A DNA stretch of 62,801 nucleotides from Verrucomicrobium sp. BvORR106. Its GTDB lineage: Bacteria > Verrucomicrobiota > Verrucomicrobiia > Verrucomicrobiales > Verrucomicrobiaceae. The translations under genes were made by a program, and so were the position numbers. The DNA is taken from the NCBI RefSeq assembly GCF_000739655.1, contig NZ_BATR01000134.1, positions 1 to 62,801 of the forward strand, written 5' to 3'. Below the pieces are notes generated by a model. It saw nothing but the letters and a program-made list of their open reading frames with translations, made no database searches and was not told the origin of the DNA. This document shows, in pieces, positions 6,883 to 36,490 of the stretch (position 1 is its first letter; every line of letters begins with the position of its first letter).

Positions 6883-9416
<2,534 letters not shown>

Positions 9417-9441
9417 TCAACCTCCCCTTCGACGCCTCACC

Positions 9442-9771
9442 ATGTCTCGCGAGGAACAAGAATTCGACGGCCCGGAAACGGACCGGCCGAATTTCCTCGC
9501 AAGGCTGGTGAGGCTGAATCGCTACCTGCTCGCCCTTCTGGTCATCCCCGCCGCGGTCTTGTATTTCCGACCGCCCCTGAAGGAACAGGAAGCCGCCCGC
9601 GCCAAGCTGGCTGAACTCACCACCCGACGTGATGGGCTCAAAGCCGATGCTGAACGCCTCCAGCGCAAGCTGGAACTGATCAAGACTGATCCCGAGTATT
9701 TAGAAAGCATGGCGAGAGACCGTCTGAACCTGCAAAAGGACGGTGAAATCATTCTGCGGTTCGAGGACTAG
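9442..9771 (+). CDS. ftsB: FtsB/DivIC-family septum formation protein
   Basis: The 109-residue protein has a short cytoplasmic N-terminus, one membrane helix (about residues 28-44, YLLALLVIPAAVLYF), a coiled coil (about 47-80, LKEQEAARAKLAEL onward) and a C-terminal segment YLESMARDRLNLQKDGE. That last segment matches the DivIC/FtsB signature, in which members usually read ARexLgmv-pgE. Such proteins link FtsL and FtsQ in the division complex. The eno-ftsB neighbour pair is common in bacteria, which supports the call. Cell division is inferred from family and context. Confidence 0.85.
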   Translation: MSREEQEFDGPETDRPNFLARLVRLNRYLLALLVIPAAVLYFRPPLKEQEAARAKLAELTTRRDGLKADAERLQRKLELIKTDPEYLESMARDRLNLQKDGEIILRFED

Positions 9772-9833
9772 CCTCACCGCAACGCCGCAGTCCGCCCCGC
9801 TCCTCCCTACCCCCATTGTCATTTCGTCAAGGC

Positions 9834-10991
9834 ATGCCCCTCCGCATTTTTGACCGTTACATCTGGCGCCAGGTTTCCTCCTCGACCCTTACGGGTGTCC
9901 TCGTCCTTACCGGGGTGATGGTCCTGGGAAACGTGTTCAAGGAAATGGAGCGACTTCTGGGTGACACCGCGTCCCTCCCGCTCCTGGCGGTGGCGCAGTT
10001 CATCACCTACGTCATCCCCTACTCCCTGATCTTCACGATCCCGTGGGCTTTGCTCACCGCCATCCTGCTCGTGTTCGGGCGCATGAGCGCCGACAACGAG
10101 ATGACCGCCCTGCGCATGACCGGCATGTCCATGCCCCGCATCTGCTCGGCCGTGTTCGTACTGTCCGTCTTCATGTCCGGCGTCTGCTACCTCGTGAACG
10201 TGGAGCTGGCCCCGCTGGCCAAGACCAAGATCAAACGCCTCTTCTACGATCTCGCCCTGGATGATCCCGCCGTGCTCTTCCAGCCCGGCAAGGTGCTCGA
10301 CCGGTTCCCCGGATACCGCATCTTCACCCAGGAGCGCGAAGGCAACAAACTGAAGAACGTCGAGATCATCCAGACCAACCTGGGCCGCGCCGAACGCTAC
10401 ATCCGCGCCAAGCGGGCCGAAGTGGTGGTGACCCCGGGCGTGACTGACTTCCAACTGCACCTGCGCAATGCCACCGTGGAAACAGGGGGTGGTGAAGCCG
10501 ATGCCGCCTCTGCTGGAGCCGAGGTCAACATCATGAACGACCTTCAGTTCCTCTACATGGGGGACACCGCCATCACCTTCCCGCTCAGCAAGCTCAAGGA
10601 GAAGACGGAACGCGTCACCAGCAGCATGAAGGACACTTCCGCTCTCTGGAGCGAGGTCAACACCGGCATCAGCAGCGTGGATGGCCAGCCACTGAGTGAG
10701 AAACTCATCTCTGTCTCCCGCACAGAGCTGAGCATGCGCTACAGCTTCTCCCTCGCTGCGATCGTTTTCACCCTGGTGGGAATCCCCTTGGGCATCACCG
10801 CCCAGCGTCGTGAGACCTCCATCGGCTTCGCCTTGAGCCTCATCGTCGCCGTCTCCTACATGGTGTTCGTCATCTTCGTCAACGGCCTCAACGAACGCCC
10901 GAGTGTTTACCCCCACCTGCTCATGTGGGTGCCCAACCTGATCTTCATCGGCGTTGGCTCCCGGATGTTCTACAAGCTGAACCGGCGATAG
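9834..10991 (+). CDS. LptF/LptG (YjgP/YjgQ) family LPS-export permease
   Basis: The ATG at 9834 (MPLRIFDRYIWRQ) gives 385 residues, with CAAGG just upstream; a TTG at 9816 is an alternative. The topology is family-typical: three N-terminal membrane helices, a periplasmic beta-jellyroll segment (about residues 130-270) with LFYDLALDDPAVLFQPGKV, then three C-terminal helices including SLAAIVFTLVGIPLGITAQ. LptF and LptG pair with the LptB ATPase to pull lipopolysaccharide from the inner membrane. I cannot decide between LptF and LptG, and the partner is not in the window. It fits a Gram-negative envelope, as does the kdsD-like gene at 31579. Confidence 0.85.
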   Translation: MPLRIFDRYIWRQVSSSTLTGVLVLTGVMVLGNVFKEMERLLGDTASLPLLAVAQFITYVIPYSLIFTIPWALLTAILLVFGRMSADNEMTALRMTGMSMPRICSAVFVLSVFMSGVCYLVNVELAPLAKTKIKRLFYDLALDDPAVLFQPGKVLDRFPGYRIFTQEREGNKLKNVEIIQTNLGRAERYIRAKRAEVVVTPGVTDFQLHLRNATVETGGGEADAASAGAEVNIMNDLQFLYMGDTAITFPLSKLKEKTERVTSSMKDTSALWSEVNTGISSVDGQPLSEKLISVSRTELSMRYSFSLAAIVFTLVGIPLGITAQRRETSIGFALSLIVAVSYMVFVIFVNGLNERPSVYPHLLMWVPNLIFIGVGSRMFYKLNRR

Positions 10992-11002
10992 GTTTTGGTG
11001 CT

Positions 11003-11023
11003 GGCCGCAGAGGTTCTGCGGCC
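11003..11023 (+). terminator. Weak hairpin after the LPS permease gene
   Basis: GGCCGCA and TGCGGCC form a 7-bp stem around a 7-nt loop, 12 bp after the permease stop. There is no clear T-run (TTAAACAA follows), so termination is uncertain. Confidence 0.35.
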
Positions 11024-11201
11024 TTAAACAACTCCCAGCCGTTTACCGAGCGGAGGTTGATCCCCCGAGTTTTCATAGCGGAACCCCCCAATGCCAAGTG
11101 TGTGACACAAGGCAGTCCCGCACGCGCATCGGTCGGGTTTAACATGATGCAAAACCCGGCCAGCAGGTGATCTCGTAATTCGTGTTTGCATAGCCGCAGG
11201 C

Positions 11202-11308
11202 TCACGCCAACGGCGTGATACAAAACAGCCCGGGTTCAGACCGCAAAGCGGTCGCCACCCCGGGTCAAAGGCGGAAGCGCTGGAACTCCAAGGGAGTTCT
11301 ACAAACCG
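11202..11308 (+). repeat. Modular triloop-hairpin element, copy 1
   Basis: Three hairpins lie in order. A is TCACGCC-AAC-GGCGTGA (11202-11218). B is an outer AGCCCGGGT/CCCGGGT pair (11227-11265) enclosing GACCGC-AAA-GCGGTC. C is GAACTCC-AAG-GGAGTTC (11283-11299), followed by TACAAACCG. Copies lie at 12912-13020 (same strand) and 13079-13185 (opposite strand), bracketing the C39-like peptidase gene. The rest of the 398-bp gap (10992-11389) holds the hairpin at 11003 and no gene. Confidence 0.8.
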
Positions 11309-11389
11309 ACCAAATCACGCGGAGTCGACCGTCCTCCATGCGGTTGACCTCCGGACTCACCAAGCACTAGGAACCAAGAACCCCACCCC

Positions 11390-12766
11390 TCACTTCGCCA
11401 TCGGTTCAATGTAATACAAACCGGTCGTCATCGCGCAGGCATTGTCCATCGGCATCCGCTTCAGCGCATGCTCAGCGCCCCAGGAGTCAGAATAGAGGAT
11501 CTCACTGGTCTTCGCATTGTAGCCGATGATGAGGCGCATATGTCCTCCAAAGCTCTGAGGCAGGTCCGCCTCCTTGTAGAGACCAAGTTGAACCCCCCAC
11601 ATGAGAGGCACTCCTTTTTCAATCGTGTCAGCCACGGCCCGCTGGAACTTGCTGTAGCCCGCCTTGTTCTTCTCCGTCCGGCTCACCTTGAGCGAGTCCG
11701 CATCCATTGAGGCATAGATGTCGCCGATATCGATGACCGCCATGTTGTTCAGATTGATCTCACGCTTGTCCCGGCGTTTGGCCTCGCGGTTGTAGTCCGA
11801 GATCATGTTGCTGAACTCTTTGTAGTCCCACTTCTCCAGCGCACGGACGCGCACGCGGAGCCGCGCTTCAAGCTTCTCCAGAGCCTCCAGCATCTCACTC
11901 GGGCTGGTGCCGCCACCCTGCCCGGTATTGGCCACTTGGGCGATCTCGTGCTGATCCACCGGGATACCGTAGTAGCGAAACACGCGCTCGGTCGTGGCAA
12001 CAGCACAGTACCCCTTGGGCCCCTGATCCACCATCGGCACATTCTTGATCACCACATCACCGCTGGTTTCACGGGTGATGTTGGCGGCCAAGCCTGAGCG
12101 AGTCGCAGCGGACGCGCCAGCGGCACCATTTGCAAGCAGGCCCTGCTGCCGCGGCACCTCCGCGACCCGAAGCCGGATGAATTCCGGGCGAAATTCCTGC
12201 CCGCGGGACTTCATCTCTTTCTGGTAGGAGTACTCCAGCAAGTAGGCCGTGGGCGGCTTCATCCACATCCACCCCATGGCCTTGACGGCGCTCTGGGAAT
12301 CCTTGCCCCGCTCCACCGGCTGAACGCCCAGCTTGGAGGAGATGAAGGTCTTGGCGTCCTCTACCTGCTTCTCAAACTGCTCCCGGTTTCCCGCCAGCGA
12401 GCTGCTGTCTCCGCGGTTGAAGATGGAGAAGTTCACCCGCGCCAGCTTCCCAGTCTGAAATTCAGCCACCGCTTCCGCCACCCGCAACTGCGGTCCCCAG
12501 AGCATGTAGGTGGAGCCAAAAAATCTTGCCTGCTCCTTGCTGGTGGAAAGCCAGTCGAAACGGAGCACCTTAAACTTCGCTTCGAACTGATCAGGCGTCA
12601 GCTCCCAGAGCTGATCTCCGCCCGCCAACTCGTCCAGAGCACGTCCCGGTTCCGTCGCTCCTGCACTGCCACCAGTACCGCTGGACTGGGAGTACACCTG
12701 CGTGAAAGACCCCATCAGCAGCCCCGCTGCGAGACAGAGTGAGGAGAATCGGCATCGCTGGATCAT
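11390..12766 (-). CDS. Secreted C39-like (papain-fold) peptidase domain protein
   Basis: The ATG at 12766 (MIQRCRFSSLCLAAGLLMG) gives a 458-residue protein with a signal peptide cleaved near VYSQS; a start at 12808 would add 14 residues ahead of it. Residues about 50-230 are of unknown fold. The C-terminal part has the C39-like cysteine peptidase triad: a cysteine in QGPKGYCAVATTERVFRYYG, a histidine in FGGHMRLIIGYN and an aspartate in ILYSDSWG. Family members cleave peptides or act as structural peptidase-like domains. No bacteriocin exporter is nearby, so leader-peptide processing is unlikely. Modular hairpin repeats flank the gene on both sides. Confidence 0.7.
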   Translation of the reverse strand: MIQRCRFSSLCLAAGLLMGSFTQVYSQSSGTGGSAGATEPGRALDELAGGDQLWELTPDQFEAKFKVLRFDWLSTSKEQARFFGSTYMLWGPQLRVAEAVAEFQTGKLARVNFSIFNRGDSSSLAGNREQFEKQVEDAKTFISSKLGVQPVERGKDSQSAVKAMGWMWMKPPTAYLLEYSYQKEMKSRGQEFRPEFIRLRVAEVPRQQGLLANGAAGASAATRSGLAANITRETSGDVVIKNVPMVDQGPKGYCAVATTERVFRYYGIPVDQHEIAQVANTGQGGGTSPSEMLEALEKLEARLRVRVRALEKWDYKEFSNMISDYNREAKRRDKREINLNNMAVIDIGDIYASMDADSLKVSRTEKNKAGYSKFQRAVADTIEKGVPLMWGVQLGLYKEADLPQSFGGHMRLIIGYNAKTSEILYSDSWGAEHALKRMPMDNACAMTTGLYYIEPMAK

Positions 12767-12911
12767 GGCAGAAGTAGGGTTTGGCGTGGAATAAACGCAA
12801 GTCTCCACGACAGCTCACAATGTGTCAATCACGGTCGGCACATGGGTGACAGGTGAGCTGGATCCAAAAAACCGGTGATAACGGGATGCCGTGTTTTCAT
12901 AGGGCAAACCC

Positions 12912-13020
12912 CACGCCAACGGCGTGATACAAAATAGCCCGGGGTCAGACTGCGAAGCGGTCGCCACCCCGGGTATCGACAGGATAGCAATGGAACTCCA
13001 AGGGAGTTCTACAGACCGTC
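12912..13020 (+). repeat. Modular triloop-hairpin element, copy 2
   Basis: The order is the same as in copy 1. A is CACGCC-AAC-GGCGTG (12912-12926). B is AGCCCGGGGT/CCCCGGGT (12936-12974) around a degenerate GACTGC-GAA-GCGGTC. C is GAACTCC-AAG-GGAGTTC (12993-13009), then TACAGACCG. The upstream flank GTTTTCATAG also occurs before copy 1 (11069), though there about 130 bp lie between flank and hairpin A. Confidence 0.8.
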
Positions 13021-13078
13021 CAAATCACCCGGAGACGCCCCTCCCGCATGCGGCAAACACCTCAGGGATGCAGCCACG

Positions 13079-13185
13079 GTTTGTAGAACTCACTTCGGAG
13101 TTCTAGCTCATCTGCCCATGTACCCAGGGTGACGGCTCGTGCCTCGCCTTACCCTGGGCTACTTTGTATGACGCCCTTGGCGTCA
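13079..13185 (-). repeat. Modular triloop-hairpin element, copy 3, inverted
   Basis: On the minus strand it reads: A, TGACGCC-AAG-GGCGTCA (13169-13185), then TACAAAGT; B, AGCCCAGGGT paired with ACCCTGGGT (13121-13160); C, GAACTC/GAGTTC (13086-13103), then TACAAACCG. Stem bases differ from copies 1 and 2, but the pairing, module order and linkers persist. Copies 2 and 3 occupy most of the 440-bp gap between neighbouring genes. Confidence 0.75.
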
Positions 13186-13206
13186 GAGCACTCGCTTGCG
13201 GCAACC

Positions 13207-20521: not shown

Positions 20522-20597
20522 GCCGTATGCTCAACAAGAGAGGTCGGGCTTGTCAACTCCGCCGTGAGGGAGCCTGCCTCCGCGGTGTTGAGATTCA

Positions 20598-20855
20598 TTC
20601 GCGTCACACCATCAACACCCTTTTTCCAGGTTCACAGAAAATAGGAGAGGAGGGCTGTTTGGCGTAACTTACAAAAAGGGTGTTGAGGGTGTTATGGAGA
20701 GAGGACAACAGATTCATTCGCCTCCACACACTCCTTCCCTCCCTGTCGATTGCCACGCACATCCCCTGACTGCGGCAACTGAAGCGGTCACCTTACAACC
20801 GCGCGAACTCCCGACACGACCTCATGGGACACTTGCACAGGACCGGGACAGGTTG
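20598..20855 (+). repeat. Dispersed repeat, left copy flanking the HEAT-like gene
   Basis: Three parts recur at 22080-22290. GAAAATAGGAGAGGAGGGCT onward (20638-20695) is nearly identical to 22080-22137. GACTGCGGCAACTGAAGCGG through GGACAGG (20768-20852) matches 22190-22288. In addition, the 28 bp around ACACCATCAACACCC (20598-20626) is the reverse complement of 22115-22143. It fills the gap between the hydrolase and the HEAT-like gene. Confidence 0.7.
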
Positions 20856-20882: not shown

Positions 20883-21752
20883 CTACTTTGCTTGAGGCAC
20901 ATCCTTCTTCAATGCAAGTTGTCTGATCTCGTTTTGATAGGCCGGCATCTGTTCGACGAGATTCGGATACTTGGTAAGTGTCGAGACCAGGGCACACTGT
21001 TCTAGAGCCTTGTCATATTGCTTGAGCTGCTTGTAACGCCCGACTTTCCAGTAGTGGGCACTAGCGACTGCGTAGCTGTCCGCTGGGTACTCAGCGATGA
21101 CGCGGTCGTAGAGTGTGACAGCGAGTGCAGCATCTTCCAGCCCCTGAATGATTTCCAGAATTGCGTCATTCACTCCCATGCCGGGGTCGGACGAACTCTT
21201 CGCCACCCTGAAGAGCTCGTCCAGAGTGATGGCGTCAAGCTCGTGCAGGGCTGCATAACTGCTTTTCTGCACCGCCGAATCGCCCTGTGCGGATGCTTCC
21301 TGCAGCACGGGAATCGCACGCTTATCTCCCAGGGAGCCTAGCAGAGAGGCAAGCACTGAGCCGTAGTGATTGGGCATCACCTCGCATCCATTCTTGGATC
21401 CAAAGCCAAACACTTTGCGGCGCCCGTCAGCGTCCTTCAGGAAAAAGTTGTCCTTACACACCCGGATGAAGAACGGGACAACTTCGGGACTTTTAGAGTT
21501 TGCCAGGGCGTAGGCAGAATAGATCCATCCTGGTTCCTGGTTGGTCACGATGCGCATCAGGATTGGCAGGGATTCTTTTTGGTGTTGCAGCAGATATTCT
21601 TCCGCCTTGTTTTTGAGCATCCAGTCGTCGAGGGATTCGTCCTGAAAGACCGCAATCGCTTCTTGGACCTTTGAAAATTCCGCGGAGAAGGAGGGCGACA
21701 GTCCACATGCCAGCATCGCGATGCCGATGAACGTTGATCGGATTGGATTCAT
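20883..21752 (-). CDS. Exported HEAT-repeat-like protein of unknown function
   Basis: The 289-residue product has a signal peptide (MNPIRSTFIGIAMLACGLSPSFSA). The body is alpha-helical, with HEAT-type helix pairs such as LLQHQKESLPILMRIV, SPEVVPFFIRVCKDN and LASLLGSLGDKRAIPVLQEA. The C-terminal quarter (LYDRVIAEYPADSYAVASAH) looks like TPR. I find no catalytic motif. A periplasmic protein-protein interaction role is likely. Dispersed repeats bracket it on both sides, suggesting that the segment from about 20.6 to 22.3 kb may have moved or recombined as a unit. Confidence 0.6.
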   Translation of the reverse strand: MNPIRSTFIGIAMLACGLSPSFSAEFSKVQEAIAVFQDESLDDWMLKNKAEEYLLQHQKESLPILMRIVTNQEPGWIYSAYALANSKSPEVVPFFIRVCKDNFFLKDADGRRKVFGFGSKNGCEVMPNHYGSVLASLLGSLGDKRAIPVLQEASAQGDSAVQKSSYAALHELDAITLDELFRVAKSSSDPGMGVNDAILEIIQGLEDAALAVTLYDRVIAEYPADSYAVASAHYWKVGRYKQLKQYDKALEQCALVSTLTKYPNLVEQMPAYQNEIRQLALKKDVPQAK

Positions 21753-22079: not shown

Positions 22080-22290
22080 GAAATAGGAGAGGAGGGCTGT
22101 TTGGCGTAACCTACAAAAAGGGTGTTGATGGTGTGACGCGAACCAATCTCAATAACCTTGATCCCACTCCCGTAGGGCGAGCGCCCCCCCGACTGAGGCA
22201 ACCGAAGCGGTCGCCCTACAACCCAAGTTACTCGGACACGAGATCCCAACACGACCTCATGGGACGCTTGCACGGGACCGGGACAGGAAT
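22080..22290 (+). repeat. Dispersed repeat, right copy flanking the HEAT-like gene
   Basis: It matches 20638-20852 in two blocks (22080-22137 and 22190-22288) and carries the inverted counterpart of 20598-20626. A hairpin GTAGGGCGA/TCGCCCTAC at 22172-22218 lies inside. The bases to 22393 include the minus-strand form of the AAGACACAAGACGCAAGAC motif (22348-22384), also seen at 36046, 36326 and 48245. Confidence 0.7.
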
Positions 22291-32617: not shown

Positions 32618-33784
32618 ATGCCGAAAAAGCCTGTGATTGCCAGTTACGTGTCTGACTTCCTCAAGGCGGACATGCTGCATGTGTATCGGCAGGTCACCGG
32701 ATTGCAGGCGCTGGAACCCTGGGTGTTCACCCATAAACGAGAAAACGACGCCCGCTTCCCCTTCCCCAAGAAGCGGCTCGTGGTGCTACCCAAGCCGAAA
32801 CTACGCTGGTGGCGGCGCTGGGTGCACAAGAACATCAAGAAGGCCCCCTGGCATCTCTACACCTGGGAGGTGCGTCACGCCCTGCTCGAACTGGAGCGGG
32901 CTGAGGCCAAACTGCTGCACATCTACTTTGGCCACACCGCCATCCATTTTCTGCCCCTGATCAAGGCCTGCCCCCACCCTGTGGTGGTCTCCTTTCACGG
33001 AGCCGATGCCGGGGTGGATGTGAACAAGCCCAACCACCTGGCCCCCTTGCGTGAGGTGTTCGCCACCGCCGATCTCATCCAGGCACGGTCGCAGAGCCTG
33101 GCGGATGACCTGATCAAGCTGGGATGCCCCGCGGAGAAAGTGCGCGTACAGCGCACCAGCATCCCACTGGAGGAGTGGACCTTCACTCCGCGCGAGATTC
33201 CAGCGGACGGTGCCTGGCGACTTTTCCAGAGCTGTCGTCTCATTGCCAAAAAGGGCCTGGACCTGACCCTGGATGCCTTTGCCGCCGTGCACCGGGAGTT
33301 TCCCAAGGCCACGCTGACCATTGCTGGAGACGGCCCCCTCAAAGAAGAACTGCAAGCTCAAGCCGCCCGTCTGGGTGTGGCTGAGGCCGTCAAGTTTGCC
33401 GGGTTCCTGGATCAGGCAGATCTCAGGCGGGAAGTCGCGACCTCGCACTTTTTCCTCCATCCCAGCCGGACCACAGGCGATGGCAATCGCGAAGGCGTGC
33501 CCAACGCCATGCTCGAAGCGATGGCCAGCGGAGCAACGGTAGTCGCCACCAAACACGGCGGCATTCCCGAGGCGATAGAGTCCGGCGAAAGCGGCTGGCT
33601 CGTGGACGAGAACGACAGCGCGGGTCTCTCGGCTGGATTGCTCGCGTTGATCAAAGATCCTCAAAGGAGCCACGCCATGGCGCTGCAAGCAAGAGCTCGC
33701 GTCGAGGCGATGTTTGACCGCACGGCGAATATCAAGGTGCTGGAGGATTGCTATCGGGAGTTGATGGAAGGGGGCGGGCGTTAA
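32618..33784 (+). CDS. Family 4 glycosyltransferase
   Basis: The ATG at 32618 (MPKKPVIASYVSDFLKADM) gives 388 residues; an in-frame ATG at 32579 is an alternative. The GT-B layout is clear: VVVSFHGADAG in the N-terminal domain, RLIAKKGLDLTLDA and IAGDGPLKEEL at the domain junction, and the nucleotide-sugar site NREGVPNAMLEAMASGATVVAT with its E-x7-E. It transfers a sugar from a nucleotide donor to a glycan or lipid at the inner membrane. The specificity is unknown. Being divergent from kdsD suggests a surface polysaccharide or LPS role. Confidence 0.87.
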   Translation: MPKKPVIASYVSDFLKADMLHVYRQVTGLQALEPWVFTHKRENDARFPFPKKRLVVLPKPKLRWWRRWVHKNIKKAPWHLYTWEVRHALLELERAEAKLLHIYFGHTAIHFLPLIKACPHPVVVSFHGADAGVDVNKPNHLAPLREVFATADLIQARSQSLADDLIKLGCPAEKVRVQRTSIPLEEWTFTPREIPADGAWRLFQSCRLIAKKGLDLTLDAFAAVHREFPKATLTIAGDGPLKEELQAQAARLGVAEAVKFAGFLDQADLRREVATSHFFLHPSRTTGDGNREGVPNAMLEAMASGATVVATKHGGIPEAIESGESGWLVDENDSAGLSAGLLALIKDPQRSHAMALQARARVEAMFDRTANIKVLEDCYRELMEGGGR

Positions 33785-33853: not shown

Positions 33854-34160
33854 CCGCACGCATCCTGCGTGCAGCCTTCTGCATCCTGCGGAAGGCATGC
33901 GCCGGGTGATCGCACGACCAAAGCAGACTGCGTATTTCCTCTCCCCTGACTCCCGCGCTGCGATGCATTTTGCATTGGGGAGCGCAGGCGGCCTGCCCGA
34001 TGCTCAGTCGCGACACGGAATGCGGCCTCAAAGTCTTGGCAACATACAACGTCACTGACGTTCCCAGCAAGATGCCGGAAACAGCACGCAGGATGCATGC
34101 GCTCCCCAAGCTTCCTTGACCTCCTCCGCATAGTCGAAGCTTATCCCTCATCGGGAAGTT
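33854..34160. repeat. Hairpin-rich intergenic segment with an 82-bp direct repeat
   Basis: Consecutive perfect small hairpins occur: GCACGCA-TCC-TGCGTGC (33856-33872), GCCTTC/GAAGGC (33874-33896), ATGCA-TTT-TGCAT (33964-33976) and AACGTC-ACT-GACGTT (34048-34062). The stretch 34067-34148, starting GCAAGATGCCGGAAACAGC, recurs with few changes at 34486-34565. No gene is present between 33785 and 34863. Confidence 0.7.
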
Positions 34161-34207
34161 GGCTTGTCGACTTTGATGATCTGATGGTGGCCCCGCACGG
34201 ATTGCCC

Positions 34208-34412
34208 GATGCCGGAGGCATCAAAGCCATTAGCCGGACGGTTGAAGGAGCGTAGCGACTGATACCTCCGGAAGTTCAGATTCAGTATTGCATCCCGGAG
34301 CGGATGCCAGCGACGTCGCCTCCGGCATCCATCTCTTCCTCCCCATCACCATCAACACCTCCGCGACCGTCACTCGCGTCCTCCCGCGCAACCAAGAGCC
34401 GGGACGGCTCTT
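34208..34412 (+). repeat. Modular triloop-hairpin element, variant 4
   Basis: Hairpin A is GATGCC-GGA-GGCATC (34208-34222). B has AGCCGG (34232-34237) facing CCGG (34268-34271) across a GC-rich inner part. A second long hairpin GGATGCC/GGCATCC (34302-34330) contains GCGACGTCGC. C is AAGAGCCG-GGA-CGGCTCTT (34394-34412), then CTACAGTCC. The A-B-C order and the CTACA tail match the elements near 11.2 and 12.9 kb, although stem sequences differ. Confidence 0.65.
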
Positions 34413-34485
34413 CTACAGTCCCTCCAACCCCTCGAATCTTTCATATAACCCACCTGCCACGACTACGCACTCCATGGCATTCTCG

Positions 34486-34755
34486 GCAAGATGCCGGAAA
34501 CAGCACGCAAGATGCGTGCGCTCCCCGAGCTTCCCTAACCTCGTCCGCAGTCGAAGCTTATCCCTGAAGGGGATATCTACCTCAGCCCAGGGTTGGACGA
34601 GCCCTAAGCGAGTCACACCCTGGGTTTGGTGCGGGGCAGAGCATCAGGTGTGGAGGCCACCACACATCTCTTCCTCCCCATCGTCATCAACACCCCCACG
34701 ATCGTCACCCACATCCTCCCGCGCAACCAAGAGCCGGGACGGCTCTTCTACAGTC
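34486..34755 (+). repeat. Modular triloop-hairpin element, variant 5, with direct-repeat leader
   Basis: The second copy of the 82-bp repeat (34486-34565) runs into hairpin A, ATCCCT-GAA-GGGGAT (34560-34574). B follows as AGCCCAGGGT (34584-34593) with ACCCTGGGT (34617-34625). C is AAGAGCCG-GGA-CGGCTCTT (34729-34747), identical to the one at 34394, then CTACAGTCC. The remaining bases to 34863 hold no gene. Confidence 0.65.
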
Positions 34756-34863
34756 CCTCCAGCTCATCGAATCTCGTTTAACTCCTACTTCCCGCCAGTG
34801 CGCCCCCCCCAATGCAAGCAGCCCATAACTCTAACCCATTCCCCTTAACCCCTAACTCCCCCC

Positions 34864-35934
34864 TCACACCGCCCCCAGACCACCCGCCACCACGCACACT
34901 TCACGGCGGTTCGCAGGCAGTTGAGTCGCCCTCAACGGTGTCGGCACGAAGCGACGGAGAGATCCCAAGATCTCTCCCACTTTGCTTTCCAATCGCTCTT
35001 CGGTCAGCTTCATGGTGAGGATGAGAAGCGCAGGACGATGGCGGCGGCACAAGTTCTCAAGATACGGAATGACCACACCAGGGGCGAGGTTCATGTCGGA
35101 CACGAGGATGTCCACCTCCGGGGGCAGGTGATGCGGGGCCAGGGTGCCCACCGCCATGCGTAGGTGTTGGAACCTCGCACCCGTCGTGGCATCGTGGAAA
35201 CACAACACATCCGGATCCATCACCCCAGTATCGACGCCATAAACCTGAGCGCCGTGTTGGAGAAGAGAGTAGCTGGCTCCGCCCGGCGCGCTGCCGAGTT
35301 CCAGCACGACCTGACCCTGTAGAGACTGCTTTCCGTCCAGACCCGACCAAGCGAGAGCCTGCTCCATCTTCAGCCAAGCGCGTGAGGGAGCCTCCAGAGG
35401 CAGTTCCAATCGCGGCAGACCGCCTGCGAGAGGGTGATGACTGGCACTGTGAAGATGGCGACCAAGGAAGAGAGGTTCCGTGGCCTTGTCTCCTACTATG
35501 ACGTCGAAAATGAGATCGCCTCGGTTCGGCCGGCTCTCCGTTGGAGCAGACAATCCCGCCTCGCGGGCGTGGCCAATCAACCGGGCTCGGAGCGCATCCA
35601 TATCCGCCCACTGCAAGCTGGACACGCCATCCTCGTGACAATCTCTCGGGAACACATGCAGATGATAGGGGCGGCCATCGGCAATCTCCCCCAACTTCTG
35701 GACCAGAGCCTTCTCATCTGGGAACAATCCCACCGAAGTCCCGGACGCCCGGCCAAACACGCAGCCCAGTTCAAAACCCGGAGGCAGTATTCTTGTGGCC
35801 TTCCACGTTACGAATTGAGGCCGCATGAAAGCGGGCGTCAACAGCCCCTCATGCCGCCGCGCCACCTCCGCCTTCAAGAGACGTTCGGAACCTTCACGAC
35901 AGGTGGAATAGACGAATTGGGCAGGAGCAGACAC
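34864..35934 (-). CDS. RlmM-like rRNA 2'-O-methyltransferase (FtsJ fold)
   Basis: No ATG fits the N-terminus. I chose the GTG at 35934 (SAPAQFVYSTCREGSERLL), giving 356 residues; a GTG at 36000 is possible. The N-terminal half resembles the THUMP-like RNA-binding part of RlmM. The Rossmann domain has the SAM motif VVLELGSAPGGASYSLL followed by GAQVYGVDTG. DILVSDMNLAP, LILTMKL and REVCVVAGG supply the D-K-E members of the K-D-K-E catalytic tetrad. E. coli RlmM methylates C2498 of 23S rRNA. The same target is likely but not certain. Confidence 0.75.
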   Translation of the reverse strand: MSAPAQFVYSTCREGSERLLKAEVARRHEGLLTPAFMRPQFVTWKATRILPPGFELGCVFGRASGTSVGLFPDEKALVQKLGEIADGRPYHLHVFPRDCHEDGVSSLQWADMDALRARLIGHAREAGLSAPTESRPNRGDLIFDVIVGDKATEPLFLGRHLHSASHHPLAGGLPRLELPLEAPSRAWLKMEQALAWSGLDGKQSLQGQVVLELGSAPGGASYSLLQHGAQVYGVDTGVMDPDVLCFHDATTGARFQHLRMAVGTLAPHHLPPEVDILVSDMNLAPGVVIPYLENLCRRHRPALLILTMKLTEERLESKVGEILGSLRRFVPTPLRATQLPANRREVCVVAGGLGAV

Positions 35935-36045
35935 AGTGGATCGGCGTGGGAATGAGGTGCGGAGGAAAGTGGACCTTCGACGATCCTGGCAAAATGACAC
36001 GGAAAAAGGAGGGCGGACCTGCTACGGGGGAGACACAAGATTTCA

Positions 36046-36490
36046 AGACACAAGACGCAAGACCTGAAGTCGGGGACGTGCGAAAGCGTCGGGCAGATTG
36101 GCAATCAGCATCAGTCACGGAATCGGAGCGATTGGCTCACACAAAGGCACGAAGGCACAAAGGGTTAGGCAAGCCACCTCGCGTATGTTCGCGGATACAG
36201 GAGGCGGGGGTTCCCAGCCCGCTCACGCCCCAAACGTCCCACGATCCCCTCCCCGCTCCGCCCATCCCACAGACCGCTGGGCCGGAGACCCCGCCCTTCC
36301 CGCTTCGCGGGAGACGCCAGACTATAAGACACAAGACTCAAGACCTGAGCTCTCGCACAAGAGGTCGCCGCATGCGTAGTCCGGTTGTCCCAACCGGCTC
36401 ACGCCCCAAGCGTCCCACGACCATCTTCCCGCTCCGCACACCCGCCACACCGCTGGGCCGGAGACCCCGCATCCTTTACTCCGCAGCCAC
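36046..36490. repeat. Composite dispersed-repeat region (three repeat types)
   Basis: The gap holds the AAGACACAAGAC-type motif twice (36046-36070 and 36326-36348). It also holds an about 170-bp unit (36134-36310) with CACAAAGGCACGAAGGCAC and GGGCCGGAGACCCCGCC that recurs at 48331-48485, and partly at 36395-36480. Hairpins include CCCGC-TTC-GCGGG (36299-36311) and CCGGTTG-TCC-CAACCGG (36381-36397) preceded by GTAGT. Some reading frames cross it, but none looks like protein. Confidence 0.7.

Follow-up and report, generated by a model that had tools for sequence, protein, structure and literature searches.

Hairpin trios and REPs in the 34-kb intergenic cluster

The window analysed here is a stretch of 62,801 nucleotides, positions 1 to 62,801 of contig NZ_BATR01000134.1 of Verrucomicrobium sp. 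BvORR106. Our subject is a set of hairpin trios found in it, each made of three successive hairpins (A, B and C), together with the Y1 transposase genes of the same genome whose terminal inverted repeats (TIRs) the trios match. At 34 kb, between a glycosyltransferase gene that ends at 33784 and an FtsJ-like methyltransferase gene on the opposite strand (34864-36000), lies a mosaic of repeats with two trios on the forward strand. The first (34208-34307), of a type that we call T4, consists of hairpins A (34208-34222; GATGCC-GGA-GGCATC), B (34232-34271; AGCCGGA..CCTCCGG, with an imperfect stem) and C (34290-34307; GCATCC-cggagc-GGATGC), and is followed by CAGC. The second (34560-34665; type T34560) is built from hairpins A (34560-34574; ATCCCT-GAA-GGGGAT, with a T-G closing pair), B (34584-34625; AGCCCAGGGT..ACCCTGGGT) and C (34648-34665; GTGTGG-aggcca-CCACAC). 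Both C hairpins have a 6-nt loop and lack CTACA. The mosaic further holds an 88-bp module (34061-34148; second copy 34480-34565, 89%) and a 110-bp module (34330-34439; second copy 34665-34774, 90%). Each copy of the latter contains a repetitive extragenic palindromic (REP) sequence of the GTAG type on the reverse strand, the first at 34394-34416 (GTAG-AAGAGCCG-TCC-CGGCTCTT on that strand) and the second at 34729-34751.

An initial annotation of this DNA had placed hairpins at 34 kb where they are indeed found, and a like layout also occurs at 11202-11303 and 12906-13186. The trios that it described at 34 kb are real, but they were cut wrongly, for the hairpin taken as C in either unit is the REP inside the 110-bp repeat. 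The trio at 11202-11303 (forward strand; type T5) has the hairpins A (TCACGCC-AAC-GGCGTGA), B (AGCCCGGG..) and C (GAACTCC-AAG-GGAGTTC), followed by TACA, and 12906-13186 is a T5 miniature element composed of A-B-C (12906-13015), a 66-bp centre and C'-B'-A' (to 13186). C of the T5 type ends in CTACA, which reads GTAG on the other strand. The CTACA tail that was said to persist across families therefore sets a REP against C of the T5 family, the real C hairpins of T4 and T34560 having no such tail.

The hairpin mistaken for C, AAGAGCCG-GGA-CGGCTCTT-CTAC, reads on the other strand as GTAG plus a palindrome, which is the mark of GTAG REPs. With up to 3 mismatches it has 93 copies in the 8.69-Mb genome, while the same search of this genome with the reversed pattern returned 0 matches. 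Many form facing pairs with about 47 bp between them, and where a stem varies, both arms have changed. The tag, the 8-bp stem, the 3-nt loop, the many copies and the inverted pairs are those of the GTAG REP families, which are reported in Verrucomicrobia in the sections of PMC3733652 that deal with such repeats; relative to the trio, the REP stands outside, at times adjoining it. A REP is present within 110 bp downstream and on the same strand at 6 of the 47 T4 matches and 2 of the 41 T34560 matches listed, and is absent from that position at the other 41 and 39. Seen from the REPs, 82 of the 93 have no T4 or T34560 unit within 250 bp, and only 11 lie near such units. Trio and REP stand side by side more often than scattered repeats would, which suggests composite blocks copied as one piece; such blocks make up a minority of the copies. 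T4, T34560 and the GTAG REP are found together in three further clusters of the genome (C58:8287-8694, C63:26072-28691 and C133:5557-6117). GTAGT-tagged REPs of a second type occur in the window at 36376, 52791 and 59746.

The 34-kb site was also compared with its orthologues in two related genomes. G003 belongs to the same genus (95% protein identity over FtsJ residues 20-378), and its site has one 88-bp module, T4, a T34560 unit lacking the 5' arm of A and, behind that unit, one 110-bp module. T4 has no REP behind it there, the sole REP copy standing after the second unit. Given this arrangement, and given that most units elsewhere are without a REP, the proposal of a single A-B-C unit ending in CTACA was rejected. 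The simplest account of the difference is a duplication in the window's line, though it may instead be a loss in G003. G001 has neither trio and no REP at this site, where a 70-bp part of the 88-bp module is left.

T4 copies (window 34148-34360 and loci L187-L194) often have about 30 nt upstream and a tract downstream in common, with GGGAAGTTGG and CCAACTTCCC on their outer sides; T4 seems to sit nested inside a larger repeat.

Y1 transposase genes and their inverted ends

Eighteen stretches of the BvORR106 genome match Y1_Tnp, and seven match a profile of the window-type enzymes. At loci L001 to L007, alignment of the upstream sequence with the reverse-complemented downstream sequence reveals long inverted repeats flanking the Y1 genes. 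Six of the enzymes are full-length (148-151 amino acids), mutually different, encoded by single-copy genes and 37-50% identical to the first; besides these there is one partial gene, L007 being broken. The TIRs of L004 are T4-like (80-83% identity), those of L005 are T5-like (75-79% identity), and the TIR of L001 matches T34560 at 81% over 64 nt. T5-like TIRs are also present at L068, in Verrucomicrobium sp. BvORR034. One common enzyme for all trios was considered and rejected, as the trio types match the TIRs of different Y1 genes. We consider it probable that an A-B-C trio forms the end of a small mobile element and that these elements depend on single-strand-acting HUH/Y1 transposases with subclass 1.2 motifs. 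In this reading the two 34-kb units are copies belonging to different enzymes, and GTAG REPs are interspersed with them in a single intergenic cluster.

The enzymes carry the HUH motif and the catalytic tyrosine, and their Y1 fold is recognised by profile: Pfam Y1_Tnp scores 9e-22 to 2e-25 in the four of the six that were run, and a profile search against solved Y1 transposases gave a best value of 9e-16, with IS608 TnpA among the relatives in the PDB. WQ and Y...Q..HH are present in all six full-length enzymes, and DHVH in five, L002 having DHAH instead. Y...Q..HH recurs in 56 of 59 further enzymes (exceptions L209, L222 and L224). For the 80-locus scan described below the motif was partly a selection criterion, the search patterns having included the tyrosine motif. 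The passages of Quentin 2018 (PMC6006769) on TnpA-Y1 subclass 1.2 define it by Y...Q..HH, describe no REP and generally no typical terminal hairpins, and place it mostly in Cyanobacteria and Bacteroidetes. Our enzymes resemble that subclass, as set out there, in DH[VI]H (5/6), WQ, Y...Q..HH, length (about 148 amino acids in the subclass) and low copy number; they differ in having three-hairpin TIRs and in reaching several further phyla.

NCBIfam names the four proteins run IS200/IS605 family transposases (transpos_IS200, 62-75 bits; cut-off 55), and this would agree with ordinary subclass 1.1 IS200/IS605 insertion sequences and their debris. We regard that explanation as quite unlikely. Subclass 1.1 has Y...Q without HH and, in the passages of PMC6006769 that describe it, small subterminal hairpins and many near-identical copies, whereas the enzymes here have Y...Q..HH, their genes are mutually different, and their ends are inverted, about 100 nt long and made of three hairpins.

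In a second alternative, all of this material would be GTAG REPs and BIMEs whose movement depends on class 2 RAYT enzymes, the situation in Opitutus terrae. It holds for the hairpin first annotated as C, with its tag, its 93 copies, its inverted pairs and its place beside 6 of 47 T4 matches, and it gains something from the GTAG reading of the T5 C hairpin, from the published record of such REPs in the phylum, and from L008, a RAYT-like gene flanked by GTAGT hairpins (REP_Tyr_transpos 58 bits, below the cut-off of 80). As an account of the trios it is very unlikely, since the C hairpins of T4 and T34560 are without GTAG, and since the trios match the TIRs of other enzymes, which reach at most 29 bits to REP_Tyr_transpos in the four run. 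Six class-2-like Y1 loci were inspected out to 1.5 kb, and the window REP was seen at none of them; L008 carries a GTAGT pair with another stem, three more loci have tagged hairpins of different stems, and two have none.

To return to trios as the ends of elements served by subclass 1.2-like enzymes, their distribution was assessed in one scan of genome contigs with the six own enzymes, from which the best 80 loci were kept. These span Verrucomicrobia, Planctomycetes, Bacteroidetes, Acidobacteria, Armatimonadetes, Deltaproteobacteria, Chloroflexi and others. A TIR was called when the flank alignment score exceeded the best of 30 shuffles plus 5 (one of the 80 loci, L090, was too short). By this rule, TIRs are present at 74 of the 86 Y1 genes with both flanks (7/7 in the own genome and 67/79 elsewhere), as against 2 of 129 control open reading frames (ORFs), which were mechanical ORFs from the own genome only, whereas all but 7 of the 86 test genes (79) belong to genomes other than this one. 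One of the two positive controls is a C39 gene bracketed by the T5 elements of the window. Within the own phylum, own genome left out, 20 of the 26 best-scoring loci have a TIR; these are 26 of 29 matches and not a random sample. Corresponding figures are 10 of 30 for the phylum of a Prevotella metagenome-assembled genome (MAG), where 50 of 118 genomes had matches and the 30 best-scoring loci, no two from the same genome, were taken, and 2 of 2 for Bacteroidota plasmid genes. L209, on a Leptolyngbya plasmid, was the only cyanobacterial match opened, and it has neither Y...Q..HH nor a TIR.

Folding finds A, B and C in order in most of the TIRs viewed. A typical trio reads NNCC-NNN-GGNN, then AGCCCAGGGC-AAC-GCCCTGGGT or a longer variant, then GCCCTGAAAGGGC or the like. 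At the genes the trios are inverted repeats, with A outermost and C adjoining the gene, and the stem sequences differ from one enzyme to another within a genome.

Two side observations were made at single loci. At L004 (1090-1260), long simple tandem repeats, GTGCGTCGG and GTGGAGGC, adjoin the Y1 gene. At L042, two related genes (7397-8542 and 8839-10026) are neighbours; from their R..STS..ExE-like motifs, we take this pair to resemble proteins of the ADP-ribosyltransferase fold.

Structural conservation and gene-less copies

The hairpins are under selection for structure, as a comparison of the two ends of an element brings out. Between such ends, 26 of 746 stem pairs have changed on both sides and are still Watson-Crick, where about 1 is expected from the per-side rate; these compensated pairs are spread over 19 of 47 loci. 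Of the other stem changes, 28 lost pairing through a change on one side, 9 gave G-T pairs and 3 altered both partners without restoring a pair; in the spacers between stems 1055 of 1555 positions are kept. From the 74 TIR-positive loci, the 47 with a left parse score of at least 19 were used, and 154 gapped pairs were left out.

Loops are biased as well. Upstream flanks at 106 TIR-positive loci contain 230 perfect triloop hairpins, compared with 29.1 per shuffled set. GNA accounts for 96 of the 230 loops, as against 41 of 582 in the shuffles. C-G closes 173 of the hairpins and G-C 6, where the shuffles have 176 of each among 582. Since AAC and AAA are frequent too (together 69 of 230), GNA is a bias and not a rule. 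C(GNA)G loops are exceptionally stable in DNA. These statistics come from a separate triloop count because our anchored A-B-C parser, which found a trio in 131 of 172 flanks, carries a loop bonus and mis-parses L002, L079, L104 and other loci; it was discarded. The more alike two enzymes are, the more alike are their TIRs (Mantel rho 0.34, p 0.001, n=106), the best of 999 permutations reaching 0.13.

Compensation would fit RNA equally well, and strong hairpins adjoining a gene could end or block its transcription. The trios might thus be RNA elements (leader, terminator or small RNA) that act in regulation, for instance by blocking read-through into the transposase gene. We think this unlikely. 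Inverted copies also stand behind the gene, gene-less copies are dispersed, the loops and closing pairs favour GNA with C-G, the combination known for its stability as DNA, and an Rfam scan of the window at the gathering threshold gave 0 matches.

As DNA ends of mobile elements, the trios have many copies away from any enzyme gene. The genome holds at least 48 matches to T5, 47 to T4 and 41 to T34560, with one enzyme gene each; for each type 40 candidates were scored, out of 62, 86 and 70 respectively, and the two arms of one miniature are counted as two matches. An inverted partner follows after 62-66 bp in 17 of 20 T5 copies (one partial), and T5 miniatures, of which 23 out of 26 could be measured, are 281-289 bp long. 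For T4, a partner alignment of at least 28 was obtained in 4 of 21 copies, most being without a full inverted partner.

Beyond this genome, the B motif (at most 2 mismatches) occurs in 20 of 40 genomes, which are those of 40 of the 80 scan loci, and has 73 copies in the Prevotella MAG; the reversed motif was found in none of the same 40. Ten copies from Bacteroidota, Planctomycetota and Acidobacteriota, selected for two B motifs that face each other, were inspected by eye; nine have the order A-B-C/C'-B'-A', the tenth being cut by a contig end. Gene-less miniatures of this form thus occur in four phyla. At L281 and L282, in a Planctomycetota MAG, A and B are in frame and read ..LKGQ..LAQGNALG.. 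(in L282, GGCCTGAAAGGCCAACCTATTTTAGCCCAGGGCAACGCCCTGGG gives GLKGQPILAQGNALG by hand translation). We believe that a near-identical peptide, ALKGQHNIAQGNALG, is found in many hypothetical proteins of Bacteroidetes, which may be mis-annotated copies of the trio repeat. The string QGNALG is contained in one paper.

The initial annotation was right to propose a structural superfamily with a kept layout and changing stems, which is real and spans phyla. It was mistaken in supposing that such families escape sequence search, as each was found by plain DNA search in the numbers given above. The structure-only descriptor that it proposed is a poor detector. In its loose form (score at least 18) it matches 136 of 172 flanks (86 homologous transposase genes, both sides), which shows that the layout is not due to chance, but it also matches 539 of 3440 dinucleotide-shuffled 260-nt flanks (16%). 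In its strict form its sole match in the window is 12912-13009 (mean 0.1 in 20 shuffles) and both 34-kb units are missed; coding sequence was covered within this strict whole-window scan only.

Orthologous sites of T5, which differ between species of the genus, give a further view of its dispersal. The 11.2-kb trio is absent at the corresponding sites of G001 and G003. For the 12.9-kb element, G001 has an internally deleted form and G003 only the A' hairpin, which is left adjoining 96 bp that replace window 10993-13161. The T5 unit is dispersed in both genomes. Between the two T5 elements lies a C39-like peptidase gene (11390-12808), which they bracket in inverted orientation (window 11188-13199), and gene and elements are together missing from G003. 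We rejected the idea that this gene is transposed cargo, as G001 keeps it in synteny without the T5 trio on the 11-kb side.

Proposed mode of spread and relation to known systems

Our best reading is that each trio serves as the single-stranded DNA site for one particular enzyme, whose gene is single-copy, and that it disperses in trans in the form of REPIN-like miniatures. When the DNA becomes single-stranded, for example as lagging-strand template, the three hairpins would fold; the cognate enzyme would then bind the trio, recognising it by the sequence of the stems and by the stable C(GNA)G loops, cut beside it with the tyrosine and rejoin the ends. Miniatures would disperse in trans without any increase in copies of the enzyme gene, the pattern known from RAYT/REPIN systems. 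With less assurance, we lean towards the broader proposition that subclass 1.2 enzymes are REPtron-like in at least four phyla, with inverted three-hairpin ends of about 100 nt, C(GNA)G-type loops, stems that co-diverge with the enzyme, and several non-cross-reacting pairs per genome, each with its own gene-less copies.

Several points weigh against these proposals. By the rule used, 12 of the 86 loci, 6 of the 26 own-phylum loci and 20 of the 30 loci of the Bacteroidota sample are without a TIR, and the last of these do fit the published view of subclass 1.2. No clean target site or duplication was found: at the place in G003 that corresponds to L180 the flanks are present and the element is absent, and the intervening sequence differs too. 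Transposition, cleavage and binding are steps that we infer. The enzyme for T34560 appears, by a weak sequence match, to be of the L001 type. Four of the 47 T4 matches listed lie in the L004 TIRs themselves, and since most of the T4 copies retrieved have no full inverted partner, the miniature form holds in the own genome for T5 only. Subclass 1.2 was assigned from tabulated motifs.

The kind of system is already known, from TIRtrons and REPtrons; the architecture and the enzyme subclass appear to be new. TIRtrons (Di Nocera 2013, PMC3733652, in the portions of the text describing them) are Y1 genes between long inverted repeats, some of them self-complementary and some forming dispersed families in dimers or clusters, and the loci here share this plan, with a Y1 gene inside long inverted repeats that belong to a repeat family. 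In the corresponding parts of Quentin 2018 (PMC6006769), however, 20 of the 26 published TIRYTs fall in subclass 2.1, the rest in 2.2 and 2.5 and none in 1.2, and the published groups, mostly of subclass 2.1, have GGGGWSAS in their TIRs, whereas the enzymes here carry 1.2 motifs. The text descriptions of TIRtrons in PMC3733652 contain no three-hairpin layout, though the "double palindromic TIRs" of its figure 9 could overlap with ours. With class 2 REPtrons and REPIN-RAYT systems, as their published outlines have it, the trios share a single-copy enzyme, many non-autonomous hairpin repeats in inverted pairs and the pairing of enzyme with repeat; they differ in having three hairpins over about 100 nt, an optional GTAG and class-1-like enzyme motifs. 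Five of the repeat sequences were looked for in the literature without a match, and titles and abstracts on hairpin repeats, RAYT/REPIN and subclass 1.2 mention no three-hairpin end; subscription journals are thinly covered by these sources, so that a prior description is possible.

The trios give a testable DNA substrate for an enzyme group described without one, and they account for intergenic repeat families in Verrucomicrobiota, Planctomycetota, Acidobacteriota and Bacteroidota. With several enzyme/end pairs per genome, in which stems vary while layout and loops are kept, they also form a natural specificity series for single-strand transposases. A mechanistic question follows from the inverted ends, namely that the top and bottom strands show the HUH enzyme different loops.

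Two other repeats of the window are recorded here. A 57-bp inverted repeat (20588-20644 and 22097-22152) brackets an ORF at 20883-21752, and no A-B-C hairpins were seen in it by eye. The 110 bp at 36186-36295 match eight places, about 144 bp apart, in G003 (L147, 7877-9066), where they form an expanded array.
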